The notes beneath the pieces were generated by a model that did no database searches, was not told where the DNA came from, and saw only the letters and a program-made list of their open reading frames with translations. Source: Gelidibacter salicanalis (GTDB lineage Bacteria; Bacteroidota; Bacteroidia; Flavobacteriales; Flavobacteriaceae). From it: a stretch of 64,000 bases of DNA. The DNA is taken from contig NZ_VORX01000002.1 of assembly GCF_007997285.1 (NCBI RefSeq), positions 186,001-250,000 on the forward strand. Reading direction: 5' to 3'. Below are positions 1 to 24,946 of this stretch, piece by piece (position 1 is the stretch's first letter; each line of letters begins with the position of its first letter). The position numbers and the translations under genes are program-made.

Positions 1-310
1 AGGTTGGTTAATGCTTTACCACGGGGTGATCAATACCTGTAACGGATTCCGTTATGCAATGGGTGCCGCTATTTTAGACGAACACCAACCAGATAAAGTA
101 AAATACAGAACGCAACCTTATTTATTAGGACCTGCTGAACTTTATGAAACCACTGGCGATGTGCCTAATGTGGTATTCCCTTGTGCAGCCTTACACGATA
201 CCAAAGAAGATAAATTGGCGGTCTATTACGGTGCCGCAGATACTGTTGTGGCAATGGCCTTCGGGAAATTGAGCGAAGTGGTGCAATTCACAAAAGATAA
301 TAGTTTATAA
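1..310 (+). CDS. GH130 family beta-mannoside phosphorylase, C-terminal part (cut by window start)
   Basis: Only the last ~102 residues are present; the reading frame is open to the left edge, so this is truncation by the window and not a broken gene. The tail carries typical GH130 features: a GWLMLYHGV strand, a segment in which the product names a derived arginine/tyrosine-rich loop, and the NVVFPC motif near the end. Family members phosphorolyse beta-1,4-mannosides; those in N-glycan loci act on Man-beta-1,4-GlcNAc, releasing mannose-1-phosphate, normally in the cytoplasm. It lies 11 bases before the CBM9-like gene and heads the same strand as GH92, GH18 and PNGase-like genes, which supports the N-glycan core role. 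The exact substrate is inferred from context. Confidence 0.85.
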
Positions 311-321
311 AAACAACTCCT

Positions 322-1392
322 ATGGATTTGAAATTTCGATATGCATTAGTATGCTTTTGGTGTCTGTCTTTGACTGCTTTTGCCCAAACAACTAACGGCA
401 AAATGCCTAAGAGTTATATCGCCTATCACACAACAGATTCTATAACAATTGATGGAAAGGATGCTGATGCGTCTTGGGATAAAGTGGAATGGACTGATTT
501 GTTTATTGATATTGAAGGGGTCAAAAAACCGACCTACAATACCCAAGCAAAAATGTTATGGGATAGTACTTATTTCTACATTTTAGCTAAAATGGAAGAG
601 CCACACGTATGGGCAGATATTACAGAGCACGACGCGATTATCTTTCATAATAACGATTTTGAAGTATTTATCGACCCCACTGGCGATACCCATAATTATT
701 ATGAAATTGAGATCAACACCATCAACACCGTGTGGGATTTATTTGTGTCAAAACCTTATCGCGAAGATAATGTGGTGTTGAATGATTGGACGGCTACGGG
801 AATGAAATCTGCTATATCCATTGACGGCACTTTAAATAATCCGAAGGATACTGATAAAGGATGGATGCTTGAAATAGCTATTCCGTGGAGCGTTTTCAAG
901 AAAGCCTATTTTGAAGAAAATGTACCTAAAGACGACTTTTGGCGCGTGAATTTTTCTAGAGTCAATTGGGATTATCAACTAAATGACGGTGCTTACGGAC
1001 GCAAGAAAGATGCGGAAGGCAATTACCTCCCGGAATACAATTGGGTATGGTCGCCACAAGGTGTCATTAACATGCACGAACCTGAACATTGGGGTTATGT
1101 CTATTTTTCTTCAAAAGAAGCTGGAGCAAAAGATACGTTTGAAATTCCAAATGACGAAAAAATCAAATGGGGATTGTATGAACTGTATCGCGCGCAAAAG
1201 AAACATTTTGAAACTCATGCAGCCTGGGCCACGTCATTAGATAGTTTGATGACCTCGCCAATAATCATTGAAGGCAAGACCATCACCCCTAAACTTGAAA
1301 ACCATAGTTTCGGATGGACGATTTCAGTTAGGAGTCCGTTTTCAAATAAATTTTTGATTATAAAAGAGGATGGTAAATTTAAGATAAAATAA
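322..1392 (+). CDS. Exported carbohydrate-binding family 9-like protein
   Basis: A 356-residue protein with a Sec signal peptide (cleavage near residue 21, after AFA-Q). The rest resembles the CBM9-like/DOMON-type beta-sandwich proteins of Bacteroidota: an early ITIDGKDADASWDKVEW segment, then DFEVFIDPTGD followed by a YYEIEINTINTVWD strand, and a later GWMLEIAIPW strand. No catalytic residues are recognisable. Such proteins occur in glycan loci but most have no proven ligand; some are found beside mannosyl-glycan enzymes. Its place between GH130 and GH29 suggests a periplasmic or surface glycan-binding accessory. The domain call is fairly secure, the role is not. Confidence 0.8.
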   Translation: MDLKFRYALVCFWCLSLTAFAQTTNGKMPKSYIAYHTTDSITIDGKDADASWDKVEWTDLFIDIEGVKKPTYNTQAKMLWDSTYFYILAKMEEPHVWADITEHDAIIFHNNDFEVFIDPTGDTHNYYEIEINTINTVWDLFVSKPYREDNVVLNDWTATGMKSAISIDGTLNNPKDTDKGWMLEIAIPWSVFKKAYFEENVPKDDFWRVNFSRVNWDYQLNDGAYGRKKDAEGNYLPEYNWVWSPQGVINMHEPEHWGYVYFSSKEAGAKDTFEIPNDEKIKWGLYELYRAQKKHFETHAAWATSLDSLMTSPIIIEGKTITPKLENHSFGWTISVRSPFSNKFLIIKEDGKFKIK

Positions 1393-1424
1393 AAATAGAA
1401 TAATAAAAGATTTAGCGGTTAGAT

Positions 1425-1457
1425 AGACCTCACAGGTTTATAAAACCTGTGAGGTCT
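1425..1457. repeat. Perfect 15-bp inverted repeat (hairpin) between genes
   Basis: The arms at 1425-1439 and 1443-1457 are perfect reverse complements separated by a three-base loop (ata). The arm reads agacctcacaggttt. There is no T-run directly after the stem, so it is not a classical intrinsic terminator. Elements of very similar sequence are, to my knowledge, scattered between genes in flavobacterial genomes, so this may be a dispersed palindromic repeat that also affects mRNA stability or termination between the CBM9-like gene and GH29. Confidence 0.85.
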
Positions 1458-1542
1458 CGGCCACCCTCAAAGATACAAGAAGTTTATTTCTTATAATTAA
1501 TTGTGCCACGTGCAGGACAAACTAAATTTAAAAATAACCCAG

Positions 1543-3156
1543 ATGGAGTTCCATAAACACATTTTAATTTTATTCTTAATCGGATTTTTGAGCTTCCCTG
1601 CTCTTTCGCAAGACAAAGACTTGTCATGGGAAGAACTCAGTGCAACTTATGAATTCCCAGCGTGGTATACAGAAGCCAGATTCGGAATTTGGGTGCATTG
1701 GGGTGCGCAAACTGAACCTATGCAAGGAGGCGGATGGTATGCGAGACACATGTATATGGAAGATGTGAAGCATGAAAAATGGGGGAGAAACGCTTATGCC
1801 TTTCACAATAAAACCTATGGCCATCCATCTGAAATTGGGTATAAAGATGTGCTTAATGAGTGGAAAGCTGATAAGCTAGACACGGATGCGCTTGTTTCAT
1901 ATTTCAAAAGTGTTGGTGCCAAGTATTTTGTTGCCTTAGCCAATCATCATGATCATTTTGATAATTTTAATTCTACCTACCACCCTTGGAATTCCGTTAA
2001 TTTGGGTCCAAAACGTGATATTATAAGAGAGTTTGAACAGTCATCTAAAAAGTACAACATGAGGTTTGGGGTGAGTTCACATGATGACCGCTTTTTGGGT
2101 TGGTGGGAACCTGCTTTTGGAGCGGACACTTCAGGACCTTATAAAGGTGTTCCTTACGATGGACATATGACCATTGAAGATGGCAAAAGCAAATGGTGGG
2201 AAGGCTTGGATCCAGCCGATTTATACGGATTGCCACCAGCACAACGGACACCTGAATACATTGAAGGGGTTAAGAAAAATTGGAAACTGCGTCACACTGA
2301 ACTTGTTACAAAATACGATTTGGATTACTTGTGGTTTGATGGCTATAATTTCCCTTATGGCGATTATGGAAAGGCCGTGAGCACCACATATTTCAACAAA
2401 AAACGTGAGAGCAATGGGAAGATTGATGCGGTTTTAGCGGGTAAATTTAGCAGTGAACCCACAACCGTTAAAGATATTGAACGTGGTGGCGCTTCTGAAA
2501 TATTAGCTTTTCCGTGGCAAGGGATCACGACACTGCGTACGTGGTTTTATAAAGAAGATGAAGGCGATCTGGACTATCGCCATAGCACCAGAACCGTTAT
2601 CGAAACCTTGGCAGATTACAATAGTAAAAATGGGAACCTTGTGCTAAATGTGGAGCTGTTACGTGATGGCACCATTCCTACAACTCAAAAACTAATTTTG
2701 GATGACGTTGGCGCATGGATACGCCTTAACAGTGAAGCTGTTTACGCCAGCAAACCTTGGAAAGTATATGGAGATAATCTGGATTCTTATCTCAAGGTTT
2801 TAGAAAATAGTGCTATTGGAGAAGCAGATCTTGAGGCCTTAAAAAAGCAAAAGAGCGAGGAACATTTCAATGAAAGAACCCTCTCCAGTCCAGCTTATGG
2901 TAAAGATGAGGTGCGGTATACCACGAACGGAGATGTGCTGTATATGTTTGTACTTAATCCAGCAGAAGGGCAAATTGAATTGCCAACTTTAGGACTGAAA
3001 TCACAACAGAAGCCTGGCAAGATAACTGCAATCGAAATGATTGGGAGTAACCAAAAAATCGAGTTTAAACAAGACAATACTAAACTAGTACTGACAGTGC
3101 CAGCAAATCGTCCTAATAATTTAACAACGGTATTTAGAATTAAAGGAGTTCTATAA
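1543..3156 (+). CDS. GH29 alpha-L-fucosidase (first of three)
   Basis: The start is placed at the ATG at 1543 because it opens directly onto a signal peptide (hydrophobic stretch ending FPALSQ); the frame extends upstream to a TTG at 1501 but those residues are not signal-like. The 537-residue product has the GH29 fold signatures: RFGIWVHWG near the N-terminus, ALANHHDHFD, and YLWFDG, whose Asp266 is the expected nucleophile of this retaining family. A short beta-sandwich C-terminal domain follows. It should remove alpha-L-fucose from glycoconjugates in the periplasm or at the surface. Linkage (core alpha-1,6, core alpha-1,3 or Lewis type) cannot be told from sequence. It differs clearly from the other two GH29 proteins here, implying different fucose linkages. 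Confidence 0.9.
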   Translation: MEFHKHILILFLIGFLSFPALSQDKDLSWEELSATYEFPAWYTEARFGIWVHWGAQTEPMQGGGWYARHMYMEDVKHEKWGRNAYAFHNKTYGHPSEIGYKDVLNEWKADKLDTDALVSYFKSVGAKYFVALANHHDHFDNFNSTYHPWNSVNLGPKRDIIREFEQSSKKYNMRFGVSSHDDRFLGWWEPAFGADTSGPYKGVPYDGHMTIEDGKSKWWEGLDPADLYGLPPAQRTPEYIEGVKKNWKLRHTELVTKYDLDYLWFDGYNFPYGDYGKAVSTTYFNKKRESNGKIDAVLAGKFSSEPTTVKDIERGGASEILAFPWQGITTLRTWFYKEDEGDLDYRHSTRTVIETLADYNSKNGNLVLNVELLRDGTIPTTQKLILDDVGAWIRLNSEAVYASKPWKVYGDNLDSYLKVLENSAIGEADLEALKKQKSEEHFNERTLSSPAYGKDEVRYTTNGDVLYMFVLNPAEGQIELPTLGLKSQQKPGKITAIEMIGSNQKIEFKQDNTKLVLTVPANRPNNLTTVFRIKGVL

Positions 3157-3222
3157 TGACGGATGATTTTAATTAACCGATTACAACTAAAGCCAATGGC
3201 ATTTTTTTAAACCACAAAAGAG

Positions 3223-4380
3223 ATGAGATTTATCAAATTTATATTCCTACTACCCCTGTTTTTTGCCTGCAACAATGCACCAGAAAAATCGGAATTGCCA
3301 GTTGAAGCGCAAGAAGTCTCCAAAAAGGATGCAGAACCTGTAGATATGAAAATCATCGGCTATGCGGCAGGATATGAAGATTACGATTTTTCAAAAATTG
3401 ATGCCTCAAAACTGACCCACATCAACTTTGCCTTTGCCAATATTGTAGAAGGTAATGCGGCTTTTGAACTCGACACTGATGCTGCCAAAATTGAAACGCT
3501 AATCGGACTCAAACAACAAAATCCGGACTTAAAAGTATTGTATTCAGTAGGCGGTTGGGTTTGGTCTGATCAATTTTCAACAATGGCTGCGTATGAGGAG
3601 TCACGCAAAATATTTGCAGAAAGTTGTGTGGCATTGCTTAAAAAACATGAATTTGATGGGGTCGATCTCGATTGGGAATATCCAGGCCAACGCGCAGAAG
3701 ACAACGTCTTCCGTCCGTCGGATAAAGATAATTTCACATTGCTTTTAAAAGCTATTCGAGAAGCACTCGATGTGCAAGGTGAAAAAGACAACACCCATTA
3801 TTTATTGACTATCGCCACTGGCGCTGATCAAGCCTATATTGACAATACCAATTTAGGAGAGGCGCACGAATACCTCGATTTTATCAACGTGATGGGCTAC
3901 GATTTTTATCAAGGTTGGATGTATCAAACCGGGCACCACGCCAATTTACACCCATCAGATAAGGAAAAATATGGCGGAAATAGTGGTGTTGAAGCCATTG
4001 AAAGACATATTGTAGCGGGCGTTCCCGTAAACAAACTCGTTTTGGGAATTCCGTTTTATGGCAGACAATGGGAAAAAGTAGCGCCTACGAAGGTTCCTTT
4101 ATACGCTTCGGCTAATGAAGGTGGTTATATCATTTCTTACTGGCAAATTCTTGAGAAAATAAAATCTGGTAACTACGAAAAATTGTATGACGAATCGGCA
4201 AAAGCGTCTTACCTCTGGAGTGCTACCGATAAGGTGATGATCTCGTGGGAAACGCCGAAAGAAATCAAATTAAAAGCAGACTATATTAAAGAAAAAGGCT
4301 TGGGAGGCGCCATGTTTTGGGAGTATAGTTTAGATAAGGATCAAGAATTGTTGAATACGCTTTTTGAAAGCTTACATTAG
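3223..4380 (+). CDS. GH18 lipoprotein (endo-beta-N-acetylglucosaminidase or chitinase type)
   Basis: A 385-residue lipoprotein (lipobox LFFAC, Cys16). It holds the GH18 catalytic signature DGVDLDWE with Asp145, Asp148, Asp150 and catalytic acid Glu152, followed by YPG as in chitinases. INFAFAN, YSVGGW, MGYDFYQGW and a terminal GGAMFWEYSLD complete a TIM-barrel chitinase-like pattern. GH18 enzymes use substrate-assisted cleavage of GlcNAc-beta-1,4 bonds. In an N-glycan locus the expected job is cutting the chitobiose core (ENGase), but the DWEYP motif is more chitinase-like than the DDEY seen in EndoH-type enzymes. The family is certain, the substrate is open. It is followed 17 bases later by the GHL10-like gene. 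Confidence 0.9.
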   Translation: MRFIKFIFLLPLFFACNNAPEKSELPVEAQEVSKKDAEPVDMKIIGYAAGYEDYDFSKIDASKLTHINFAFANIVEGNAAFELDTDAAKIETLIGLKQQNPDLKVLYSVGGWVWSDQFSTMAAYEESRKIFAESCVALLKKHEFDGVDLDWEYPGQRAEDNVFRPSDKDNFTLLLKAIREALDVQGEKDNTHYLLTIATGADQAYIDNTNLGEAHEYLDFINVMGYDFYQGWMYQTGHHANLHPSDKEKYGGNSGVEAIERHIVAGVPVNKLVLGIPFYGRQWEKVAPTKVPLYASANEGGYIISYWQILEKIKSGNYEKLYDESAKASYLWSATDKVMISWETPKEIKLKADYIKEKGLGGAMFWEYSLDKDQELLNTLFESLH

Positions 4381-4397
4381 TAGAAATAATTATTTGC

Positions 4398-5519
4398 ATG
4401 CGGAGAATAACCACATATTTGTTTTTGTTTCTGATTGTCGTAGCACTTAGTGGTTGTAATCAAAAGGAGCGCAAACAGGAGACTGCAGCAAATGTGAAGT
4501 CCGCAGAACTGAAGGCTTTTAATTTTGGCACCTGGATCACTTCAAACAAAGCAACATCCAACGCAGATTATGCCGCTGAATTCAAACGGTATAAAGAAGG
4601 TGGTATAGATGAGTTGCTCATCAACACGGCTACAGACGTTGAAGAATTGGAGCGTTTGGTGGCTATAGCATCAAAAGAAGGTCTTAAGGTACACGCTTGG
4701 ATGTGGGCGGTCAACCGACCAGGAGATACCATTGCCCAAAAACATCCGGAGTGGTATATGGTGAGCAGAGATGGCAAATCGTGCTATGACACCCAGCCTT
4801 ACGTAAACTATTACCAATGGCTTTGCCCCACCAGAGAAGCGTCTCGGAACCATATTTTAAGTTTGGTAGAACGTATGGCCAAAGTGGAAGGCATTGAAAG
4901 TGTACATCTCGATTATATCCGATTCCCGGATATTTTCTTGCCCATAGGATTACTGCCTAAATACAACCTTACCCAAGATACTGAAATGGCGGAATACGAT
5001 TTCTGTTATTGTGAAGCCTGTATCAGTGCTTTCGAAAAAATCCATCACAAAAATCCACTGGAAAGTAACAATACCGCGATTGACATGGAATGGAAGAATT
5101 TCCGGTTGAATGCCATTAGAAACTTGGTCAATGACGCTTACGAGATCGTCCATATAAACAACAAAAAACTGACTGCTGCTGTTTTTCCTTATCCAGAAAT
5201 GGCTGACCATATGGTGCGCCAACGTTGGGATAAATGGAATATTGATGCCGTTTATCCGATGATTTACCACGGCTTTTACAACGAAGAAATCGACTGGATT
5301 GGTTATGCCACCAACCAAGGTGTCACCGATTTAGAATCTAAAAATGTCGGATTACATACGGGCGTTTTTCTGCCCCCATTTACATCTGCCGAAGAACTTA
5401 AAGTAGCCATTCAATATGCTAAGGATAACGGCGCCAAAGGCGTGACATTTTTTGACGGTCCACAATTAACAGATGCCTATTTACAGACTATTAAAGAAAT
5501 AAAAGGAAGCTTTAACTAA
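4398..5519 (+). CDS. Putative glycoside hydrolase, GHL10/DUF187 (YddW-like) lipoprotein
   Basis: A 373-residue lipoprotein (lipobox ALSGC, Cys20). The body resembles the YddW/GHL10 (DUF187) TIM-barrel group: an early WITSNKA strand, GLKVHAWMWAVN, a central HLDYIRFPD motif typical of this group, a CYCEACISAF segment, and TAAVFPYPE with DAVYPMIYH near the end. It is not a true GH10 xylanase. Biochemical function is largely unknown for close relatives; the barrel and conserved acidic residues argue for a sugar-cleaving enzyme. Its position between GH18 and the sugar importer makes it a candidate for an uncharacterised step in glycan breakdown. The family is recognised with good confidence, activity is unknown. 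Confidence 0.75.
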   Translation: MRRITTYLFLFLIVVALSGCNQKERKQETAANVKSAELKAFNFGTWITSNKATSNADYAAEFKRYKEGGIDELLINTATDVEELERLVAIASKEGLKVHAWMWAVNRPGDTIAQKHPEWYMVSRDGKSCYDTQPYVNYYQWLCPTREASRNHILSLVERMAKVEGIESVHLDYIRFPDIFLPIGLLPKYNLTQDTEMAEYDFCYCEACISAFEKIHHKNPLESNNTAIDMEWKNFRLNAIRNLVNDAYEIVHINNKKLTAAVFPYPEMADHMVRQRWDKWNIDAVYPMIYHGFYNEEIDWIGYATNQGVTDLESKNVGLHTGVFLPPFTSAEELKVAIQYAKDNGAKGVTFFDGPQLTDAYLQTIKEIKGSFN

Positions 5520-5529
5520 CACATAACCT

Positions 5530-6843
5530 ATGTCCAACCAGAAATCATACCGATCCGCATTTATTTTATTGACCATCCTATTTTTCCTTTGGGGATTTAT
5601 AACAGTGCTGGTCGATTCCCTAATTCCGCGATTGCGTGAACTGTTTACCTTAACTTATTTTCAGGCAGGACTGGTTCAATTCGCGTTTTTTGGAGCTTAT
5701 TTTCTACTCTCCATCCCGGCAAGTTATATCCTTTCCAAAATTGGCTATAAAAAAGGAATCATCCTCGGATTATTGACCATGGCTTTGGGCTGTTTACTGT
5801 TTTATCCGGCCGCTTCCTATCGTGTGTTTGGCATATTTATGTTGGCGTATTTTATTCTCGCTGGTGGGATTACCATTCTGCAGGTAGCTGCAAATCCATT
5901 TGTCGCTGTTTTGGGTTCAGAGGATGGCGCATCGAGTAGATTAAATCTTTCTCAGGCTTTCAATTCCTTAGGAACTGCAATTGCTCCGGCTATTGGAGCG
6001 CTATTTATTTTGAGCGATGTGATAAAAACAAAAGATGAAATTGCAGTTTTGGATAGTTCTGCAAAAGAGGCCTACCTCTCCGCAGAAGCTGCAGCCGTGC
6101 AAACGCCATTTTTAGGCTTGGCACTTTTTATAGGACTGATCGCTGTGATATTTTTGTTTGCAAAATTACCTACCATGATTTCAGAAACGTCTACCGGAAC
6201 GTATAAGGAAGCTCTAAAGAATAAAAAACTGATGCAAGGGGTTTTGGGTATTTTCTTTTACGTAGGTGCTGAGGTCGCTATTGGGAGTTATTTGGTCAAC
6301 TACTTTTTAGATATGAATCTGGTTTCCGTTATTAAAGAATCGAGCTTGATGCGATCTATTGCTGAAACCATTTTAAATTCAGGTTTGGCAGATAAAGATG
6401 GTAAAGCTGTTGTGGGTGTTTTTGTAACTTTCTATTGGTCAGGAGCGATGATTGGAAGATTTGTTGGTGCTTATCTTACTAAAATTATGCAGCCAGGAAA
6501 AGTCTTGGCTATTTTCGCCATCATCTCCATCAGTTTGATTGTGCTATCAATCAGTACGGTTGGATTGGTGAGTATGTGGAGTATTTTGGCGGTTGGTTTA
6601 TTCAATTCCATCATGTTCCCAACCATTTTTACGCTAGCTATCGACGGTATTGGACATTTAAAACCAAAAGCTTCAGGAATGCTGTGTACTGCTATTGTGG
6701 GTGGCGCCATAATTCCTCCAGTTTTCGGATTTTTAACCGATCACATAGCATTTAAAAACGCCATGATTTTTATTATACTGTGCTATGCGTATATTGTGTG
6801 GTTTGGGTATAAAAATGGCAAAGCGAAAGTTGTTGTTGTGTAG
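5530..6843 (+). CDS. MFS sugar:H+ symporter, FucP/NagP-like
   Basis: A 437-residue, twelve-helix membrane protein of the major facilitator superfamily, fucose/glucose-galactose (FGP) branch. Features seen are the N-terminal FFLWGFITVLVDSLIPRL helix typical of FucP-like carriers, ILQVAANPFVAVLG in helix 4, and GRFVGAYL in the second half. Family members import L-fucose, galactose, glucose or N-acetylglucosamine across the inner membrane. Within this locus, GlcNAc or fucose released by the GH20, GH84 or GH29 enzymes is the natural cargo; the sequence does not decide which. It starts 10 bases after the GHL10-like gene, so it is probably cotranscribed. A purine-rich repeat separates it from the following GH92. 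Confidence 0.88.
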   Translation: MSNQKSYRSAFILLTILFFLWGFITVLVDSLIPRLRELFTLTYFQAGLVQFAFFGAYFLLSIPASYILSKIGYKKGIILGLLTMALGCLLFYPAASYRVFGIFMLAYFILAGGITILQVAANPFVAVLGSEDGASSRLNLSQAFNSLGTAIAPAIGALFILSDVIKTKDEIAVLDSSAKEAYLSAEAAAVQTPFLGLALFIGLIAVIFLFAKLPTMISETSTGTYKEALKNKKLMQGVLGIFFYVGAEVAIGSYLVNYFLDMNLVSVIKESSLMRSIAETILNSGLADKDGKAVVGVFVTFYWSGAMIGRFVGAYLTKIMQPGKVLAIFAIISISLIVLSISTVGLVSMWSILAVGLFNSIMFPTIFTLAIDGIGHLKPKASGMLCTAIVGGAIIPPVFGFLTDHIAFKNAMIFIILCYAYIVWFGYKNGKAKVVVV

Positions 6844-13990: not shown

Positions 13991-14060
13991 GACTGATTCT
14001 GCTGGGTTTAAAGTGCGGATTTTAAAAGGTGATTGAGGTTTGAGCAAGAATAAATTTATA

Positions 14061-16394: not shown

Positions 16395-18613
16395 AACAGT
16401 TTAGCTTATTAATTCTCTTAATTTTTTGTGGCACTTCTAGCCTCATGGCACAGGAGCCGGCGGATTATGTGAATCCGTTTATTGGCACTTCCAACTATGG
16501 CGCCACGTTTCCTGGGCCCATTGCGCCACGAGGCATGGCGAGTATCAGTCCGTTTAATGTGGCAGGACCGCAAAACACCTTGGAAAAGGACAGTCAGTGG
16601 TTGTCTAATCCGTATGTGAATGAAAATACATTTTTAACCGGTTTTAGCCACGTCAATTTGAGTGGTGTGGGCTGTCCAGATTTAGGAGTGCTATTGTTAA
16701 TGCCAACCACGGGCGAATTAGAAACTAATCACCTGAACTACGGTTCTACGTACAAAAATGAAGTTTCAAAAGCTGGCTATTACAGCACGGAAATCGATAA
16801 ATATAAAGTGAAAGCAGAGTTCACAGCGTCGACACGAGTAGGGGTGAGTAAATTTCATTTTCCAAAAGGTCAGGCGAATGTCTTATTGAATCTTGGATTA
16901 GGATTGACCAATGAGGAAGGTGCTATGGTGCAAGTCGTCTCATCAACGGAAATTGAAGGCATGCGTTCCGTTGGATCGTTCTGTTATAACAGTCCAGAAG
17001 CGGCATATCCGGTTTATTTTGTCGCTCAATTTTCAAAACCAGCCGATAATTTTGGCGTTTGGAAAAAACCTGCAACTTATGAGGGCGTTGAAGCACAATG
17101 GATGGGCTATAATGGCAAAACACGACTGATGGAGAAATCGACCAAAATGGTGGTTGGTGATAGTATTGGAAGCTATTTTACTTACAATTTTGAGAAAGCA
17201 GAAACCGTTACAGTTAACATCGGCGTGAGCTATGTCAGTATTGCCAATGCACGCGAGAACTTAGAAAAGGAAACCAATAACAAAACCTTTGAAGATGTTT
17301 ATAAAGACACCTATAACGCATGGAATGAAACACTCTCTAGAATCAAAGTGGAAGGTGGTTCTGAAGATGATAAAACCGTTTTTTATACCGCTTTATACCA
17401 CACCCAAATTCACCCGAATACTTTAAACGACGTCAACGGCGACTATCCTGAAATAAAAACAGGAAACATCGGAAATACTGATGGGACGCGCTATACCGTA
17501 TTTTCTTTATGGGATACCTATCGTAATGTGCACCAATTGTTATCGCTCGTTTATCCGCAGCAGCAGAATAATATGATCCATAGTATGTTGGATATGTATG
17601 ATGAAAATGGCTGGCTTCCAAAATGGGAATTAAATTCCACCGAAACCTTTACCATGGTGGGCGACCCAGCGAGTATTGTCATTGCGGACACCTATATGAA
17701 AGGTATTCGCGATTTTGATGTAGACAAGGCCTATGAAGCGATGCTAAAAAGTGCCGATCAGTTGGAAAACAACCCGCTGCGTCCAGGTTTGAAAGATTAT
17801 ATTGAAAAAGGATTTGTGACTACGGATCATGGTGGATCGGTTTCGACCACGCAAGAGTATAATGCTGCCGATAATGCCATCGCTCAATTGGCAAACGCAC
17901 TTGGTAAAAAAGACGATAACAAGCGGTTTAAGAACCGCTCGTTATCGTATAAAAAATTGTTCGATAAAGATTTGAAAATGTTGCGTCCTAGACTACAAAA
18001 CGGGGAATGGTACGAACCTTTTGATCCTTACGTTGGTGCTAATTTCTCTGAAAACATCGGATTTATTGAAGGTAATGCGTGGCAATATTCGTTCATGATA
18101 CCGCATAATATTGATGGACTCATAAAGTTGATGGGCGGCGGTAAGGACTTCACAGATCAGTTGCAAAAGATATTTGACACGGAGCAATTTGATATGGCTA
18201 ATGAACCGGGAATTGCTTATCCGTATCTATTTAATTATGTGAAAGGCGAAGAATATCGCAGTCAGCAAATGGTAGAAGATTTGGTTAGAAAACATTTCAA
18301 GAACAGTCCTGATGGCATCCCTGGAAATGATGATACCGGCACCATGTCTGCTTGGGTAGTCTATTCTATGATGGGCTTTTACCCAATCGCTCCTGGAGAA
18401 CCTGTTTATACCATTACCAAAACGTTATTCGATAAAATCACCATTCAATTAGATTCCAAATATTACAAGAATAGTGAGTTGGTTATTGAAAAAGAAACCA
18501 ATGGCAACGGTCGCATCGATCACATTTTAATCAATGGAAAAAAACATAAGGGATATTTTATTAGTCATGACGACTTGGTAAATGGAAACACAATGAAGGT
18601 CATTCTAAAATAA
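16391..18613 (+). CDS. GH92 exo-alpha-mannosidase (third of three, divergent)
   Basis: A 740-residue Sec-exported protein (signal ends SLMAQ). It carries YVNPFIGTSNYG, TGFSHVNLSGVG, VFSLWDTYRN and GNDDTGTMSAWVVYSMMGFY, all GH92 features. It lacks the usual HGNEPxHH loop: the corresponding site reads MANEPGIAYPYLFNY (Glu605), with no histidine pair. The absence of those histidines and the shorter loop imply a distinct substrate specificity. It overlaps the preceding GH92 by four bases and is followed by the PNGase-like gene. Three non-redundant GH92 enzymes in one run are typical of loci that dismantle high-mannose N-glycans bond by bond. Confidence 0.92.
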   Translation: MKQFSLLILLIFCGTSSLMAQEPADYVNPFIGTSNYGATFPGPIAPRGMASISPFNVAGPQNTLEKDSQWLSNPYVNENTFLTGFSHVNLSGVGCPDLGVLLLMPTTGELETNHLNYGSTYKNEVSKAGYYSTEIDKYKVKAEFTASTRVGVSKFHFPKGQANVLLNLGLGLTNEEGAMVQVVSSTEIEGMRSVGSFCYNSPEAAYPVYFVAQFSKPADNFGVWKKPATYEGVEAQWMGYNGKTRLMEKSTKMVVGDSIGSYFTYNFEKAETVTVNIGVSYVSIANARENLEKETNNKTFEDVYKDTYNAWNETLSRIKVEGGSEDDKTVFYTALYHTQIHPNTLNDVNGDYPEIKTGNIGNTDGTRYTVFSLWDTYRNVHQLLSLVYPQQQNNMIHSMLDMYDENGWLPKWELNSTETFTMVGDPASIVIADTYMKGIRDFDVDKAYEAMLKSADQLENNPLRPGLKDYIEKGFVTTDHGGSVSTTQEYNAADNAIAQLANALGKKDDNKRFKNRSLSYKKLFDKDLKMLRPRLQNGEWYEPFDPYVGANFSENIGFIEGNAWQYSFMIPHNIDGLIKLMGGGKDFTDQLQKIFDTEQFDMANEPGIAYPYLFNYVKGEEYRSQQMVEDLVRKHFKNSPDGIPGNDDTGTMSAWVVYSMMGFYPIAPGEPVYTITKTLFDKITIQLDSKYYKNSELVIEKETNGNGRIDHILINGKKHKGYFISHDDLVNGNTMKVILK

Positions 18614-18668
18614 GTATCTCGCTTAAAAACATCCAATGCTAACAATTATAGACAAACACAATTTTAAC

Positions 18669-19847
18669 ATGAAATCAAACGTATTAATTTTTACATTTTT
18701 AGTATTTGCAATTTTCTCATCAAGCGCTCAAAAGCCTTCTACTTACCGGGTTTTTGAAAAGCAACCTCTCAATTTCGGAGGTGAAAAAGGCAGCGATGCT
18801 GAAACGGTGCGTTTAATGGACGGCCGTTTGGTATATAAAAAAGTAACGGTACCCACATTTGCTAAAGGCACGGATGTGAACATCAAATTGACGGTGCGTT
18901 CTAGCGGCGACCGTTGGGACAAGTCGGGGTCTGTCTTCGTGGTTTCTGATCGTGACAAACTTTCCATTTTGGACATTGCAGAAAAGGATGAAAAATTCCC
19001 GACAGATTCTTATGTAGATGAGAAATACGCTGGATTGGTACAGGGAAAAAGCTACGAGCCAGTTGTTGAATTGATGCGTTTCATGACGCCGTTTGGAGTG
19101 GGACATTACAGTGATAATAAAGTTAAGTATCGAAGACCTGTATATATCCCATCTTGGGAAAAGGAAGTAGTGTGGGAGCATGATATTACCGCTTTAGAAA
19201 GCTTGGTGACGGGCACGTTTTATGTAGGCGTGTGGATCGATTCGTGGACCGCTGAAGGCTACGATTTTGATCTGGAACTGAGTTATTCTGACAGAACACA
19301 ACAAAAAGTTTCAGTACTGCCTATAGTGAATACCATTCCGTACGTTGGCGGACAGAAAACACCAGATAATTTCGCTCATAAAGATTTGGAGCAAACCATT
19401 CAACTGAAAAAGAATGCCAAAAACGTGAAATTGCATTACATCACTACCGGACACGGCGGGCATAGTGGTGGCGATGAATTCATCAAAATTAAAAACAGTG
19501 TCTATTTTAATAATACATTGGTTTTGGATACCATTCCATGGCGAGATGATTGTGCGTCCTTCCGACGATTCAATCCTACATCTGGCGTATGGATTAAAAA
19601 AGATTCGGCGTCCTACATCAGCCCAAAAACCAATAAATACGAAATAAAAGAAATTGAAGAACGCATTGCCTCTTCTGATTTGTCGAGATCTAACTGGTGC
19701 CCAGGCTCCTCAGTAGAACCTATGGTGGTGAGTTTAGGCGACTTAAAAGCGGGAGCGCACACGATTAAAATAAAAATTCCTGCAACGCCTGTGGACGGTG
19801 ACAAGCTGAACCATTGGTTGGTATCGGCATATTTGACTTACGAATAA
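18669..19847 (+). CDS. PNGase F-like peptide-N-glycosidase
   Basis: The ATG at 18669 opens on a signal peptide (IFSSSAQ); an upstream in-frame ATG at 18636 adds non-signal residues. The 393-residue product matches the two beta-sandwich domains of flavobacterial PNGase F: DRWDKSG (Asp84), RFMTPFGVGHY, an IDSW strand (Asp191), TTGHGGHSGGDEF (Glu270) and SNWCPGSSVEP. Recalled alignment puts these at the Elizabethkingia PNGase F positions Asp60, Glu118 and Glu206, so the second acidic residue is Asp rather than Glu. The enzyme hydrolyses the GlcNAc-Asn amide and releases whole N-glycans. It is the last gene before a strong terminator. Homology is clear though distant; activity is inferred. Confidence 0.85.
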   Translation: MKSNVLIFTFLVFAIFSSSAQKPSTYRVFEKQPLNFGGEKGSDAETVRLMDGRLVYKKVTVPTFAKGTDVNIKLTVRSSGDRWDKSGSVFVVSDRDKLSILDIAEKDEKFPTDSYVDEKYAGLVQGKSYEPVVELMRFMTPFGVGHYSDNKVKYRRPVYIPSWEKEVVWEHDITALESLVTGTFYVGVWIDSWTAEGYDFDLELSYSDRTQQKVSVLPIVNTIPYVGGQKTPDNFAHKDLEQTIQLKKNAKNVKLHYITTGHGGHSGGDEFIKIKNSVYFNNTLVLDTIPWRDDCASFRRFNPTSGVWIKKDSASYISPKTNKYEIKEIEERIASSDLSRSNWCPGSSVEPMVVSLGDLKAGAHTIKIKIPATPVDGDKLNHWLVSAYLTYE

Positions 19848-19874
19848 GCCTATAATTTTAGTTAAAAATGCTCT

Positions 19875-19920: not shown

Positions 19921-20023
19921 AACGTTTTCAAAAATCAATCGACGTGCCTATCAAGTTGTGTGACGATTGAGAGCTGTCATTCGTCTAATTTCGGACATAA
20001 TTTAACATAATTTTATATATTAT

Positions 20024-20039: not shown

Positions 20040-20080
20040 TAGTTCTTCATGGATAAAATAATAACTTAAAATTAATATTA

Positions 20081-23000
20081 ATGATACAAAAAGGAAGTAT
20101 GTTGCTGCTTGTGTTCTTTTTGTTCGGCTTCATGGCCGTTCAAGCGCAAGTGACAGTAAAAGGTACAGTCACTGATGCCACTAATGGTGATCCCGTACCG
20201 GGAGTTAACATTATGGAAAAAGGAACAAGCAAAGGGGTAATTACTGATTTTGACGGTAAATATTCTATTGACGTAAGTTCAAATGGTACTCTTCAATTTA
20301 GTTATGTTGGGTATGCCACTCAGTCTATCGCTGTTAATGGTAAACAAACCATTAATGTGGTTATGGAGGAACAGAGTGAAGGTTTAAATGAAGTAGTTGT
20401 TGTTGGTTACGGCACCCAGAAAAAGGGCAACCTTACCGGTGCAATAAGTACAATTGACGCTGAAGTTCTAGAAAACAGGCCTGTAAGCAACGTTATGCAA
20501 GCCATACAGGGTTCTGCACCAGGACTACAATTAAGCGTTGGTAACAGCGGAGGTTCACCAGGATCGAGCATGAATATTAGTATTCGTGGGGTTGGGAATT
20601 TACAAGGAACTGGAGCACCTTTAGTAATTGTAGATGATATTCCGCTTAACGATCCGTCAGGATTAAACAATATCAATCCAAATGATATTGAAAGTATTTC
20701 TGTATTAAAGGATGCTGCTTCATCAGCAATCTACGGCTCTCGTGCTGCATTTGGCGTTATCTTGGTTAAAACCAAGAGCGGTGCTGGCGTACAAGGTCAT
20801 GAAATCACCTATTCTAATAACTATATCTATTCTTCTCCAACGAGAATCCCAGACATGATGAATTCTCTGGACTTTGCTAATTATTTCAACCTTGCCGCAA
20901 CAAATGGTGGAGGAGCGCCAATATTTAATGATGATACTTTAGAACGTATCAAGGCTTATTTAGCTGATCCGATAAACACGCCGGTTACTGTGGCGAACCC
21001 AAATGGTACGCAGTGGCAACAATATACAGGATCTAATGCCAACACGAATTGGTTTGACGTGATGTATAAGGATCTTGTGATGCGTCAACAACATAATCTT
21101 AGTTTTTCAGGAAACGAAAAGAAACTTTCTTATAATGTTTCAGGTTCTTTCTTTGATGCGCCAGGGATTATGAATTTCGGAGATGACAGCTACCAAAGGT
21201 ATACTTTGAACAGTAAAATTTCCAGTAAAATGAACGAATGGTTTACGGTGAATGCCAATGTCAGAATGGCTCGTGAAGATTTGGACAGACCAAGTTATGA
21301 TCCGGGACTTTATCTGCATAATATTGCCAGACGTTGGCCAACCAACGGTGTTGTAATGCCAAATGGTAGTTACAGTGATGGTTCTGAAATTCCTTTCCTT
21401 TTGGATGGTGGAAGACGTATGTCAAAAGATTACAGTACCAATGCTAGTATTGATCTAATTTTTGAACCAATTGAAGATTTAAAGATAAAAACAAGTTTGT
21501 TATACCAACGTAATACTAACAATATCACTTCCCATTCTGCAAAAGTTGGTGTGATAGAACCTAATGGTCAGGAGCGTTTAATTCAACAAAACAATAGTTT
21601 TGTGAGATATGCTTATGAACGGAATTATATTTCTCCAAACCTTGTAGTGTCTTATGACAAATCTTTTAATGAGGCGCATAACTTTTCAGGATTGTTAGGT
21701 TTTCAACAAGAAGATACCGACTATAGTGCGGTTCAAGCTTCCAAAAATGATCTAATTACGGATAATGTACCTTCTATTTCTACAGCTGTTGGTGAAGATA
21801 ATGTAGGTGATTCTCAAGGCTCTTTTGGAACACAAGGGTATTTTGGAAGACTCAATTACAACTATAAAGAGAAGTACCTTCTTGAAGTTAATGGACGCTA
21901 TGATGCCTCTTCGAGATTTGCACCGGATAGCCGATGGAACTTTTTCCCATCCATTTCTGCTGGATACAACATTGCGAAAGAAGATTTTTGGCCAGTAGAT
22001 GACATTAGTATGTTTAAAATCCGTTATTCTACAGGATCTATCGGGAACCAAAACGTTGCCAACTACCTCTACATCTCTCGTATGCCAATAAGAACCAACT
22101 TATGGTGGATAGGAAATGCAGGCAGACCAAACTATACGTTAACTCCTGGTCTTATTAGTCCAGATATTACTTGGGAAACTGTTAAAACTGATAATTATGG
22201 TTTGGATATAGCAGCGTTTAAGAATCGCTTACAAACCACATTTGAATATTTTATTCGTTCTACGGATGACATGTTTGGTCCAGCAGAGCGTTTGCCAAGT
22301 GTTTTAGGCACCTCAGCACCACAGGCTAACAATGCATCTTTAGAAACTAAAGGATTTGATTTCAGTATCACTTGGAAAGATAATATAGGAGAGGTTAATT
22401 ATAACCTAGGCTTTATCCTATCTGACGCGGTGACAAAAGTAACTAAGTACCGTAATCCTAACAATTTATTAAACACCTACCGAGAAGGACAAACGCTTGG
22501 AGATATATGGGGATTTGAAACTGTAGGGTTATATCAAAGTCAAGATGAAATTGATAATGGTCCAGATCTAACCAGATTCTATGGTGGTCAATGGTTTCCA
22601 GGTGATGTACACTACAAAGATCTTAACGGTGATGGTTTTGTAGATTGGGGTAAATCTACTACAGACGATCCGGGAGATTTAACCGTGATTGGTAATTCAA
22701 CACCGCGTTACCAATATTCATTTAATGGAGGTCTTGACTACAAAGGACTTGATTTTTCAATGTTCTGGCAAGGAATTGGTAAAAGAGATGTTTGGACAGG
22801 AGATGCTTACACCTTCGGAGCTGTAGGAAACCAATGGCAATCTGCCGGATTCCAAGAACATTTAAATTATTGGTCTGAAGATAACCCAAATGCATTTTTA
22901 CCAAGACCAACATTTAGAAGTGCTTGGAGGAACCAAGAAGTTCAAACCAGATATTTGCAAAACGGCGCTTATGTAAGATTAAAGAATGTGACGCTTGGTT

Positions 23001-23194
23001 ATAGCTTTTCTGAACTTGTACTCGAAAGATTACATCTTAAAAAACTTAGATTTTTTGTTACTGGAGAAAATTTGTTGACCATTACCAAAATGTCTTCCAT
23101 TTTTGATCCAGAAGCTACTGGAGGTAGTTGGGGAAATGGTAAAATATACCCACTTCAAAAATCGTTCTCGATTGGTTTAAATATTCAATTTTAA
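20081..23194 (+). CDS. SusC/RagA-family TonB-linked outer-membrane transporter
   Basis: A 1037-residue protein: signal peptide (ends AVQAQ), a carboxypeptidase-regulatory-like domain (~23-105) with GVITDFDGKYSIDV, then the TonB-dependent plug starting at EVVVVGYGTQKKGNLTGAIS, and a C-terminal beta barrel ending in a terminal aromatic (NIQF). SusC proteins form the channel through which SusD-captured oligosaccharides enter the periplasm using TonB energy. It is followed 12 bases later by its SusD partner. The pair stands between two terminators (19875 and 25002) and so is a separate transcription unit that can be induced strongly. Confidence 0.95.
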   Translation: MIQKGSMLLLVFFLFGFMAVQAQVTVKGTVTDATNGDPVPGVNIMEKGTSKGVITDFDGKYSIDVSSNGTLQFSYVGYATQSIAVNGKQTINVVMEEQSEGLNEVVVVGYGTQKKGNLTGAISTIDAEVLENRPVSNVMQAIQGSAPGLQLSVGNSGGSPGSSMNISIRGVGNLQGTGAPLVIVDDIPLNDPSGLNNINPNDIESISVLKDAASSAIYGSRAAFGVILVKTKSGAGVQGHEITYSNNYIYSSPTRIPDMMNSLDFANYFNLAATNGGGAPIFNDDTLERIKAYLADPINTPVTVANPNGTQWQQYTGSNANTNWFDVMYKDLVMRQQHNLSFSGNEKKLSYNVSGSFFDAPGIMNFGDDSYQRYTLNSKISSKMNEWFTVNANVRMAREDLDRPSYDPGLYLHNIARRWPTNGVVMPNGSYSDGSEIPFLLDGGRRMSKDYSTNASIDLIFEPIEDLKIKTSLLYQRNTNNITSHSAKVGVIEPNGQERLIQQNNSFVRYAYERNYISPNLVVSYDKSFNEAHNFSGLLGFQQEDTDYSAVQASKNDLITDNVPSISTAVGEDNVGDSQGSFGTQGYFGRLNYNYKEKYLLEVNGRYDASSRFAPDSRWNFFPSISAGYNIAKEDFWPVDDISMFKIRYSTGSIGNQNVANYLYISRMPIRTNLWWIGNAGRPNYTLTPGLISPDITWETVKTDNYGLDIAAFKNRLQTTFEYFIRSTDDMFGPAERLPSVLGTSAPQANNASLETKGFDFSITWKDNIGEVNYNLGFILSDAVTKVTKYRNPNNLLNTYREGQTLGDIWGFETVGLYQSQDEIDNGPDLTRFYGGQWFPGDVHYKDLNGDGFVDWGKSTTDDPGDLTVIGNSTPRYQYSFNGGLDYKGLDFSMFWQGIGKRDVWTGDAYTFGAVGNQWQSAGFQEHLNYWSEDNPNAFLPRPTFRSAWRNQEVQTRYLQNGAYVRLKNVTLGYSFSELVLERLHLKKLRFFVTGENLLTITKMSSIFDPEATGGSWGNGKIYPLQKSFSIGLNIQF

Positions 23195-23206
23195 TAACAT
23201 CATATT

Positions 23207-24946
23207 ATGAAATATACAAAATTCATTGCATTAACATTAATACTTGCCTTTAGTTTGGGCTGTTCTGATGATATGCTGGACAAATTGCCTCAGGATGAAA
23301 TTTCTCCAGAGGCCTATTGGAAAACTCCTAATGATCTCGCGCTGTTTTTAAATCAATTCTATACCTCCTTCCCTGTACATAATGGGTATAATGGTGGAAT
23401 ATTTGAGTTTGATAACAATAGTGATAATCTTGCCGATATTTTTGTAAACAACCGTTTAGTAGGTAGTACTACTAGTGTGCCAACGTCCGATGGTAATTGG
23501 GCTTATGGCTCCATCAGAGCGGTCAATTTTTATCTTGAAAACAGTGCCACTGCACAAGGAGATGCTGCATTAATCGATCATTATGATGGTGAAGCTTATT
23601 TTTTCAGAGCCATGTTTTACTACAACCTTCTTAAACGTTATGGAGGCGTACCATACATAGATAAAACGCTTACTACAAATTCGCCAGAATTGTATTCGCC
23701 AAGATTGGCCAGAAATGAGTTGGCCACCAAAATTATAGAAGACTTAGATATGGCTATCGCCAAATTGAAACCTAGAAGTTCAGCTGAGGCTTTTAGAGTT
23801 CATAAAGGTATTGCCTTATCTTTAAAATCGACGGTTGGACTTTATGAAGGAACTTGGGAGAAATACCATAACGGAACGGCATTTGCCGCACCGGTAAATG
23901 AAAGTGAAAAATTCCTTCAAATGGCAGTAGATGCGGCTGAAACCATTATCAATAATGGTGAATATACGCTCTACAATAACGGAACTTCAAAAACCTATTG
24001 GGATTTATTCAATAAGGTTGATTACTCTGGGGTTTCAGAAGTTATGTTTTGGAAAAAATATAGTGTTTCAGACGGTGTGAGCCATTATGTGGGGCATTAC
24101 CTTCCACATACAGGTTCTGGTACTGGCGTAACAAAATCGTTAGTAGATTCGTATTTAGCTAGTGATGGACAACCTATAGGTGTGAGCCCTCTATACAGCA
24201 GCGCTCAGGAAAATAGTCTTACCAATATAGTAAAAAATAGAGACCCAAGACTTGCGCAAACCATTGCCACACCGGGAGATTTATTAACGGAAAATTCTGG
24301 AGTGCCAAATGAACTATTTACATTTCCAACCTTTAGAGGTAACAATGAAATTACTAATACCACCGGTTTTCAAATTTATAAAGGTGGAATTACTGATAAT
24401 GCGCAACGTACAAATAGTTATACTGGTGCCATTATTTACAGATATGCTGAGGTACTTCTTAATTTTGCTGAAGCAAAGGCTGAACTAGGAACCTTAACTC
24501 AAGCTGATCTTGATAAGTCGATCAACTTACTTAGAGCACGTGTAGATATGCCAGCTCTTAATATTGCGCCTGTTCCAGATCCTAACAAAGCGTTTCCTGC
24601 ATTGAGTGACATCATTAATGAAGTGAGAAGAGAGCGCAGAGTAGAATTGGCATTAGAAGGTAAACGTTTTGACGATTTGATGCGTTGGGCAGCAGCTGAT
24701 GAACTAATTGTAGGAAAGCGTCTGCTAGGTTTTAAAATCATCGGAAGTGGAGCAATGGAAACTGAATTTTCAGATTTAATTGGAAATTCTATTCTCGTCA
24801 ACTCACAAGGTTATATTGATCCTTATATGAACACCATTCCGACGGGATTTGGCTTTAACCTTGGTAGAGATTATTTATCGCCTATCCCTACAGAACAAAT
24901 TGTTTTAAGTCAAGGAACTTTGGTTCAAAATCCAGGATGGGAATAG
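23207..24946 (+). CDS. SusD/RagB-family glycan-binding lipoprotein
   Basis: A 579-residue lipoprotein (lipobox FSLGC, Cys19). SusD hallmarks are seen: DKLPQDEISPEAYW near the start, EAYFFRAMFYYNLLKRYGGVPY in the TPR-like helices, YRYAEVLLNFAEAKAEL, and EVRRERRVELALEGKRFDDLMRW. It caps SusC and binds extracellular glycans. It is the only complete SusC/SusD pair in the window, so it probably serves N-glycan or LacNAc oligosaccharide import for the whole region. Binding-site aromatics cannot be assigned by eye. Confidence 0.95.
   Translation: MKYTKFIALTLILAFSLGCSDDMLDKLPQDEISPEAYWKTPNDLALFLNQFYTSFPVHNGYNGGIFEFDNNSDNLADIFVNNRLVGSTTSVPTSDGNWAYGSIRAVNFYLENSATAQGDAALIDHYDGEAYFFRAMFYYNLLKRYGGVPYIDKTLTTNSPELYSPRLARNELATKIIEDLDMAIAKLKPRSSAEAFRVHKGIALSLKSTVGLYEGTWEKYHNGTAFAAPVNESEKFLQMAVDAAETIINNGEYTLYNNGTSKTYWDLFNKVDYSGVSEVMFWKKYSVSDGVSHYVGHYLPHTGSGTGVTKSLVDSYLASDGQPIGVSPLYSSAQENSLTNIVKNRDPRLAQTIATPGDLLTENSGVPNELFTFPTFRGNNEITNTTGFQIYKGGITDNAQRTNSYTGAIIYRYAEVLLNFAEAKAELGTLTQADLDKSINLLRARVDMPALNIAPVPDPNKAFPALSDIINEVRRERRVELALEGKRFDDLMRWAAADELIVGKRLLGFKIIGSGAMETEFSDLIGNSILVNSQGYIDPYMNTIPTGFGFNLGRDYLSPIPTEQIVLSQGTLVQNPGWE

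Follow-up and report, generated by a model that had tools for sequence, protein, structure and literature searches.

Gene content and conserved linkage of a predicted N-glycan utilisation locus of Gelidibacter salicanalis, with a DUF4015/GHL10-like lipoprotein as a candidate core-cutting enzyme

The analysed DNA, hereafter the window, is the whole stretch of 64,000 nucleotides from contig NZ_VORX01000002.1 of Gelidibacter salicanalis, and its features are collected in Table 1. By a Pfam profile scan, all the families named in the initial annotation (GH130, GH18, three GH92, glycosylasparaginase (AGA), GH20, two GH29, PNGase and SusC/SusD) were confirmed within 1-24946, far above chance; the CBM9, DUF4015/GHL10-like and MFS symporter genes were absent from that list. 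The locus had been bounded at 24946, which was not retained because the same-strand gene run extends to 40202. Directly upstream of position 1, a further GH92 (the fourth) is accompanied by an SSF symporter and a LytTR two-component pair, and the gene-rich region exceeds both ends of 1-24946 by far, with sialic-acid, sulfatase and O-glycan genes (upstream, two BNR sialidase-like proteins, a NanA-like protein, GlcNAc-2-epimerase and SASA esterases; downstream, GH84, GH123 and GH109).

Table 1. Features of the window, with positions counted from its first nucleotide
Feature	Position	Strand	Profile match and other characteristics
GH130, UhgbMP-like Man-beta1,4-GlcNAc phosphorylase, 3' gene end	1..310	+	PF04041, 1.1e-67
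CBM9 protein	322..1392	+	signal-like N-terminus; usually found beside the DUF4015/GHL10-like gene
GH29 alpha-L-fucosidase	1501..3156	+	4.1e-69
GH18, chitinase-type, candidate chitobiose-core cutter	3223..4380	+	2.1e-86; lipobox Cys16; DGVDLDWE at residue 145
DUF4015/GHL10-like TIM-barrel lipoprotein	4398..5519	+	lipobox Cys20; candidate core endo-beta-N-acetylglucosaminidase or chitobiase
MFS sugar symporter (FucP/GluP-like)	5530..6843	+	
GH92	6910..9156	+	6.4e-188; closest solved 6f8z (660 bits), 7zgm (614 bits)
Glycosylasparaginase (AGA)	9168..10193	+	1.5e-64; Tat-type signal motif; nucleophile Thr191
GH20 beta-hexosaminidase	10214..12544	+	1.5e-125
GH29 alpha-L-fucosidase	12547..13896	+	7.1e-93
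GH92	14040..16394	+	1.6e-176; closest solved 2wvx/2ww1 (BT3990), 1076 bits
GH92, more diverged	16391..18613	+	2.1e-159; nearest 6f8z and 7zgm (371 bits each)
PNGase, Bacteroides group-1 type	18636..19847	+	both Pfam domains, 1.1e-56 and 7.6e-54
SusC-like TonB-dependent transporter	20081..23194	+	
SusD-like lipoprotein	23207..24946	+	
Two beta-galactosidase-type GH2, GH27, third GH2 (same-strand continuation)	25309..35641	+	
Two sulfatases and GH16-like protein (end of same-strand run)	35638..40202	+	

The window contains only the 3' end of the GH130 gene, which begins 656 bases before it, at contig position 185345. The closest solved relative of this GH130 over the full length is UhgbMP (4udg/4udk, 495 bits over 317 residues), by which it was assigned to the UhgbMP type, and the protein is probably cytoplasmic because no signal peptide was detected by a crude scan. 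The GH92 set was divided into BT3990-like and BT3130-like enzymes by comparison with solved structures.

The PNGase (403 aa, without the N-terminal bowl domain) was assigned to the PNGase F-like group 1, with 393 bits to 4qhb and 391 bits to 3ks7 of the Bacteroides group 1 versus 218-229 bits to three type-II sequences. The core-fucose gate, at which Asp versus Gly distinguishes group 1 from type II (PMC9522356), is Asp202, with Asp in 11/11 alignment rows; this residue was placed by alignment (chain Gly351, giving an offset of 29 for G380, by which the Glu418 of that paper is one residue off), and the mapping is accurate to about one residue. The AGA was identified by its similarity to 3ljq, a solved glycosylasparaginase (406 bits), and by the autocleavage site H189-D190-T191, which is invariant in 14/14 rows, and the beta chains of the solved relatives start at query residue 191. 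The products of this reaction are Asp and an unstable amino-GlcNAc (PMC6960285), so the cascade ending in Asn that had been proposed was corrected. The proposal of two entry routes is reasonable, because the two enzymes need different peptide lengths: PNGase requires more than two peptide residues and AGA takes the single-residue glycoasparagine after full proteolysis (PMC6960285, PMC5134220).

The GH18 is the sole PF00704 match in its own genome, which is to be read as one PF00704 match since this profile may miss ENGases. Among the matches listed (the best 60 of 142 by sequence, and 50 by fold), its relatives were chitinases, chitinase-like proteins or N-acetylglucosaminidase, and no ENGase was present among the 50 VIA-align fold matches, although it may still act on N-glycans. 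Its earlier assignment as a release enzyme was thus replaced by a role as a chitobiose-core cutter after release, which is more plausible from the chitinase-type relatives. As a whole, the full cascade claimed before was supported by homology for the amidase, the alpha-mannosidases, the UhgbMP-type phosphorylase and the AGA, and was not supported for GH18 release and the Asn end product.

The SusC/D pair together with the co-oriented CAZyme run constitutes a polysaccharide utilisation locus (PUL), and an N-glycan-releasing enzyme, GH92 and a Man-GlcNAc phosphorylase were all found by homology; 1-24946 is, as predicted from these genes, part of an N-glycan utilisation locus of Gelidibacter. Neither mannan nor chitin use is known to involve PNGase, AGA or UhgbMP-type GH130, whose presence argues against algal or yeast alpha-mannan or chitin as the target, a reading that we consider highly improbable even though loci rich in GH92 and GH130 in flavobacteria from the North Sea have been assigned partly to algal mannans, with N-glycosylated glycoproteins also suggested (PMC6298971). 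The sialidase-like, NanA-like, GlcNAc-2-epimerase and SASA genes upstream and GH84, GH123 and GH109 downstream point in the same direction, and no GH76 or GH125 match was obtained among the 33 window proteins scanned with Pfam profiles.

The lipoprotein at 4398..5519 was assigned to DUF4015 (PF13200) with 37.5 bits at a Pfam cut-off of 27, and 12/12 orthologues were matched by this profile at E 0.01. The GHL10 profile (PF02638) matched 8/12 orthologues at the same threshold, the window's own protein not being among them, and a search of its own genome with PF02638 returned, in place of this lipoprotein, two proteins encoded on contig C8. In the structure model (mean pLDDT 75.5; low loops 133-138, 176-198 and 264-274), the top three Foldseek matches were the GHL10 domain of Cwp19 (best 5.7e-14), and PgaB, also solved with GlcNAc, was aligned at Z 23.8; GH42 beta-galactosidases equalled or exceeded Cwp19 and PgaB in VIA-align (25.7, 24.5, 23.8), as TIM barrels are generic. 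GH42 beta-galactosidase and GH156 sialidase are possible fold relations of this protein. The invariant D172-Y173 and G322 are the apparent counterparts of the key residues Asp196-Tyr197 and Gly328 of Cwp19 (PMC5765458). In the literature searched, DUF4015/PF13200 turned up in one paper, where a figure legend concerns an unrelated fusion.

Locus-type DUF4015/GHL10-like proteins formed one clade (39 rows, support 97/98), of which 37/39 had GH130, AGA or GH92 neighbours. Outside this clade, neither GH130 nor AGA was nearby in any of the 20 relatives read, and the neighbours of the only such relative checked by Pfam (L235) were PEPCK and RF-1; the link to N-glycan genes is therefore not general to the DUF4015/GHL10-like family. 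DigH presumably belongs to GHL10. Cwp19 is a peptidoglycan lytic transglycosylase (PMC6016235) and DigH hydrolyses denuded peptidoglycan (PMC12288456), which, with the position of the non-clade relatives away from GH130 and AGA, would suit a cell-wall enzyme or an exo-glycosidase that does not cut the N-glycan core directly. This is unlikely for the locus type, which is a single clade and, across many genera, stands in tight linkage with GH130 and locus-type AGA.

The linkage was counted in 299 Flavobacteriaceae genomes. Locus-type AGA (at least 562 bits; lower copies were left out, with the next four checked by script and the copies at 51-53% in G138, G195 and G241 excluded) was present in at least 29 genomes (30 copies) among the matches listed, and UhgbMP-like GH130 in 46 genomes (47 copies). 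A DUF4015/GHL10-like gene of at least 550 bits was located within 5 kb of 29/30 locus-type AGA copies, the exception being G220, and of 36/47 GH130 copies. For the 11 remaining GH130 copies, a strong copy was present elsewhere in three genomes (G229, G164 and G252), only a weaker one (265-287 bits) in five, and none in the table in three; the alignment itself matched 68/299 genomes at 1e-30, with copies of 265-417 bits lying outside the 47. Of the 26 neighbourhoods of PNGase that were read, 12 also contained AGA (at least 60% identity). From these counts, AGA, cassette and PNGase in one locus are uncommon in Flavobacteriaceae, yet recurrent. The cassette at the centre of the locus is common to many Flavobacteriaceae, and the completeness described as unusual by the initial annotation, which had suggested a gene-order comparison, was not upheld once this recurrence was counted.

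Of 80 named loci, the 66 that span at least 20.9 kb were counted and the 14 shorter ones left out. CBM9 was present in 66, GH92 in 66, SSF in 65, GH130 in 64, GH20 in 59, AGA (at least 60% identity) in 46 and GH18 (at least 60%) in 21, leaving 20 without AGA and 45 without GH18; these counts are inflated, the loci having been located via the DUF4015/GHL10-like gene itself. The gene identities, the key residues and the conserved linkage are established here.

A DUF4838 protein, which we take to be GH163, was present in four neighbourhoods without a DUF4015/GHL10-like gene (G217 and G212 by Pfam, G032 and G258 by similarity), and GH163 stood alongside that gene in 5/40 GH130 neighbourhoods. GH163, read at first as a core endoglycosidase, was rejected as its substitute: it cuts antennal GlcNAc-beta1,2-Man (PMC10154615), so its presence does not speak for an exchange at the core. 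In the same 40 neighbourhoods, the DUF4015/GHL10-like gene was present in 29, GH18 in 15 and both in 12, by which GH18 and the DUF4015/GHL10-like protein were rejected as strict alternatives. All of DUF4015/GHL10-like, GH18 and GH163 were missing from six neighbourhoods, each a stretch of 17-20 kb.

It is also improbable that GH18 alone cuts the core, as a bacterial counterpart of lysosomal chitobiase, with the DUF4015/GHL10-like protein acting otherwise, for example in the removal of core or antenna sugars. Lysosomal chitobiase is a GH18 that requires earlier cleavage of the Asn-GlcNAc amide (PMC13213659), the GH18 N-acetylglucosaminidase 6inx is among the relatives of the Gelidibacter GH18, and the genome's single PF00704 match lies inside the cassette; moreover, the same GH18 (74% identity) is present in G220, which has AGA without a nearby DUF4015-like gene, and GH18 at 34-35% in G032 and G258, also without that gene. 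Against it, only 21/66 named cassettes contain a GH18 of at least 60% identity, and 17/40 GH130 neighbourhoods have DUF4015/GHL10-like without GH18 or GH163, GH18 being judged in the stretch read alone, which is no proof of another core cutter.

From linkage and fold, we tentatively propose the DUF4015/GHL10-like protein as a possible core cutter, and the locus as a whole probably serves animal-type N-glycoproteins, with the core-cutting step supplied from within the cassette. We infer the substrates, the order of steps, their localisation and the core-cutting role as follows. The antennae would be trimmed by sialidases, sulfatases, GH2, GH27, GH29 and GH20, the glycans released by PNGase from peptides without core alpha1,3-fucose, and alpha-mannose taken off by the GH92 enzymes. 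Cleavage of the GlcNAc-GlcNAc core would take place in the envelope, through the DUF4015/GHL10-like lipoprotein, the chitinase-type GH18 or both, the former yielding Man-GlcNAc for GH130 and GlcNAc-Asn for AGA. Man-GlcNAc may then be imported via the SSF or MFS symporter and converted by cytoplasmic GH130 to mannose-1-phosphate and GlcNAc, and glycoasparagines derived from proteolysis would be removed by AGA with the formation of Asp. It is conceivable, if rather doubtful, that the DUF4015/GHL10-like lipoproteins of flavobacteria form an N-glycan core-cutting family so far undescribed, which arose by a single recruitment of an older enzyme, often linked to CBM9, and which supplies the missing step from amidase or proteolysis to GH130 in many environmental Bacteroidota.

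The lysosomal pathway uses beta-mannosidase, which would be replaced here by GH130 phosphorolysis, and the DUF4015/GHL10-like protein is additional. High-mannose N-glycan PULs of B. thetaiotaomicron reportedly contain SusC/D and GH92. In lysosomal N-glycoprotein breakdown, amide cleavage is followed by the GH18 chitobiase and AGA acts only after proteolysis (PMC5134220, PMC13213659), as may be the case here. The B. thetaiotaomicron PULs with BT3987 and BT1285 (PMC11180146) are likewise directed to N-glycoproteins, but release is by surface GH18 ENGases, compared with PNGase and a chitinase-type GH18 here. The plant N-glycan system of Bacteroides massiliensis (PMC9522356) also employs PNGase, GH92, GH29 and GH2; its PNGase, of group 2, tolerates core alpha1,3-fucose and is accompanied by a GH3 xylosidase, whereas Gelidibacter has group 1 and combines AGA, GH130, GH18 and DUF4015/GHL10-like in one run. 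The Gpd complex of Capnocytophaga canimorsus (PMC3128124) is a flavobacterial N-glycoprotein deglycosylation locus with SusC/D homologues too, but GpdG is an ENGase, and the words PNGase and glycosylasparaginase are absent from the main text of that paper.

A review from 2023 on how bacteria degrade N-glycans (PMC10154615) gives GH18, GH85 and PNGase as the release enzymes and states that PNGase products retain two GlcNAc; in the available text of the review no bacterial enzyme splitting this pair after PNGase is named, and the words chitobiose and asparaginase are absent from its main text. Among the literature matches listed, no paper combined glycosylasparaginase with polysaccharide utilization, a single paper joined PNGase, PUL and GH92, and those on N-glycans, flavobacteria, PULs and GH130 did not, judged by their entries, address this question. 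The cassette assigns a specific uncharacterised candidate protein to the post-PNGase GlcNAc-GlcNAc step in many genera, and an AGA gene within an N-glycan locus is a feature of many flavobacteria. Bacterial AGA from Elizabethkingia and Lactobacillus is covered by a paper of 2020 (PMC6960285). In the Lactobacillus casei alf-2 pathway for Fuc-GlcNAc-Asn, glycosylasparaginase and fucosidase are used for glycoasparagines, as proposed here; the available description comprises an MFS transporter, a fucosidase and AGA and mentions neither an amidase nor mannosidases, and AsnA2 is without a signal peptide and probably intracellular (PMC6960285), in contrast to the Tat-type signal motif of the Gelidibacter AGA.

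All enzyme families named in the initial annotation, which had proposed a complete cascade from glycoprotein to Asn, were found in the window (C15:186001-250000; the genome totals 3.78 Mb, spread over 24 contigs), and its N-glycan reading of the locus is likely right; the best lead is a gene absent from its list, encoding a DUF4015/GHL10-like lipoprotein. The N-glycan run is encoded on the plus strand in the order GH130, CBM9, GH29, GH18, DUF4015/GHL10-like, MFS, GH92, glycosylasparaginase (AGA), GH20, GH29, GH92, GH92, PNGase, SusC and SusD, and is followed on the same strand by GH2, GH2, GH27, GH2, two sulfatases and a GH16-like gene. Directly upstream are a LytTR response regulator and a histidine kinase (opposite strand), then a GH92 and an SSF symporter.

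Features of the N-glycan run and the surrounding region (window positions unless contig C15 or the flanking stretches L005 and L006 are named)
Feature	Position	Strand	Content
Sialic-acid type locus, upstream	L005:7687-19723 (C15:153.7-165.7k)		SusC/D, NanA-like, two BNR proteins, GlcNAc-2-epimerase, creatininase
GH130, 3' end	1-310	+	truncated by window edge
GH18	3223-4380	+	
DUF4015/GHL10-like	4398-5519	+	373 aa, lipobox-like Cys20
GH92	at 6910	+	
AGA	9168-10193	+	nucleophile Thr191, Tat-type N-terminus
GH92	at 14040	+	
GH92	at 16391	+	
PNGase	18636-19847	+	
Putative lipoprotein	40265-40864	-	199 aa
GH84 to GH29 run	41715-53143	-	GH84, GH123, two GH20, M28 peptidase, GH29 with F5/8-type C domains
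NANM-SSF fusion	53614-56223		N-acetylneuraminate epimerase-like Kelch domain (NANM) fused to SSF symporter
Further locus, beyond window edge	61999-64000 and L006:3-4959		GH109, then SusC, SusD, DUF3823 protein

The PNGase gave 393 bits to 4qhb and 391 bits to 3ks7, both of which we take to be Bacteroides group-1 PNGases, versus 218-229 bits to type-II chains; 7zgn is presumably the B. massiliensis PNGase. According to PMC9522356, structures of group-1 enzymes are available for both B. fragilis and B. vulgatus. Asp202 occupies the site of the type-II Gly that admits core alpha1,3-fucose, which would make animal-type cores likelier substrates than plant or insect cores. The AGA gave 406 bits to 3ljq, presumably from Elizabethkingia, and the GH130 gave 495 bits to the Man-beta1,4-GlcNAc phosphorylase UhgbMP. 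The GH92 at 14040 was closest to BT3990 (2wvx/2ww1, 1076 bits), which we take to have alpha1,2 activity, and those at 6910, at 16391 and upstream of the run were closest to 6f8z and 7zgm, the latter presumably the B. massiliensis alpha1,3-mannosidase. 6f8z is BT3130, treated as an alpha1,3-mannosidase in the comparison of PMC9522356. The top solved relatives of the GH18, the single PF00704 match in the genome, were chitinases by sequence, and those of its predicted fold were, among the matches listed, chitinases and chitinase-like proteins (Z 40.6-43.8).

Three families, GH130 among them, are known to break Man-beta1,4-GlcNAc, and PNGase products keep two GlcNAc on the glycan (PMC10154615); on glycoasparagines, two GlcNAc would stay on Asn. 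A GlcNAc-GlcNAc cut must therefore precede GH130. In lysosomes this cut is made by a GH18 chitobiase, following amide cleavage (PMC13213659). Within 40 GH130 neighbourhoods (stretches of 17-57 kb; window plus upstream stretch, 84 kb), the DUF4015/GHL10-like gene was present in 29, 17 of which had neither GH18 nor GH163 within the stretch; among the remaining 11, three had GH18, two more only GH163 and six none of the three. The DUF4015/GHL10-like protein is a candidate core cutter by an argument from linkage, which is not proof.

The AlphaFold model of this protein had a mean pLDDT of 75.5 and a pTM of 0.75, and the top three Foldseek rows were all for Cwp19, a lytic transglycosylase acting on peptidoglycan (PMC6016235), in its GHL10 domain. 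By VIA-align the scores were close together for GH42 (Z 25.7, 2.7 A, 295 residues), Cwp19 (Z 24.5, 3.0 A, 277 residues) and PgaB (Z 23.8, 3.0 A, 297 residues). The Cwp19 residues named in PMC5765458, Asp196-Tyr197 past strand 4 and, at strand 7, Gly328, are matched by the invariant D172-Y173 (within HLDYIR) and G322, judging from motif and strand position rather than a residue-level superposition. In that paper the PgaB Asp equivalent to Asp196 is suggested to stabilise an oxazolinium intermediate; such a route would be N-acetyl-assisted chemistry, which a GlcNAc substrate allows.

The rarity claimed for the locus did not hold, as locus-type AGA, GH130 and DUF4015/GHL10-like genes recur among 299 Flavobacteriaceae genomes. 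UhgbMP-like GH130 was counted as 47 copies in 46 genomes, and DUF4015/GHL10-like, at a threshold of at least 550 bits, gave the same two totals; at 1e-30, 68 genomes had a DUF4015/GHL10-like match. AGA of any kind is nearly universal (253 genomes), so its mere presence says little; the high-scoring, locus-type set (at least 562 bits) comprised 30 copies in 29 genomes. A DUF4015/GHL10-like gene lay within 5 kb of 29 of these 30 copies (the exception being in genome G220) and of none of the four AGA copies that ranked next. It lay equally close to 36 of the 47 GH130 copies and, in reverse, GH130 to 35 of the 47 DUF4015/GHL10-like copies. A PNGase domain match was found in 49 genomes, 27 of them with a full-length reading frame of some 400 residues (read from the table). 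Of the 29 genomes in the locus-type AGA set, no more than 13 carried the 400-residue PNGase, so the AGA branch does not require that enzyme. PNGase and AGA (at least 60% identity) shared 12 of 26 PNGase neighbourhoods, the window included and genome G170 left out.

GTDB species genomes were also scanned with the DUF4015/GHL10-like alignment, and 80 of 300 relatives were kept, all titled as flavobacterial genera, Flavobacteriaceae or Flavobacteriia except one 'uncultured Bacteroidetes bacterium'. The 66 named loci of at least 20.9 kb contained CBM9 (66), GH92 (66), SSF (65), GH130 (64), GH20 (59), histidine kinase (55), AGA at 60% or above (46), GH18 at 60% or above (21) and PNGase (1, the 10-kb flank being seldom long enough for its position); anchoring on the DUF4015/GHL10-like gene inflates these counts, and the reverse test in the 299 genomes is the fair one.

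In a midpoint-rooted tree of 60 sequences, several outer rows of which were long branches, one clade (support 97/98) held 37 rows with GH130, AGA or GH92 neighbours together with genomes G030 and G252; stretch L250, with a GH92 neighbour, was placed outside. Neither GH130 nor AGA was found near relatives outside the clade in the 20 stretches read (L235-L254), 18 of which had a CBM9 gene. This makes a single recruitment of the DUF4015/GHL10-like gene into N-glycan loci probable. The CBM9-DUF4015 pair was found across Bacteroidota apart from GH130 and AGA in these stretches, adjoining PEPCK and RF-1 genes in L235 and a GH18 in L251 and L252. In genome G133, GH130-CBM9 is duplicated in tandem (stretch L064), and a second DUF4015-AGA pair is on a different contig.

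Glycan-related genes span about C15:153.7k to 255k, also including, upstream of the N-glycan run, SASA esterases, GH27, GH20 and a second SusC/D and, past the run, a hybrid two-component regulator. The GH84 to GH29 run suggests O-glycan or mucin use beside the N-glycan locus, and the NANM-SSF fusion may combine a mutarotase and a transporter for sialic acid in a single protein. Given the sialic-acid, sulfatase and O-glycan-type genes around the N-glycan run, the substrate of the region is probably a sialylated, sulfated animal-type glycoprotein or mucus. The 199-aa putative lipoprotein had no match in Pfam or NCBIfam; a 75% identical homologue in Gelidibacter genome G244 likewise adjoins a GH16-like gene.
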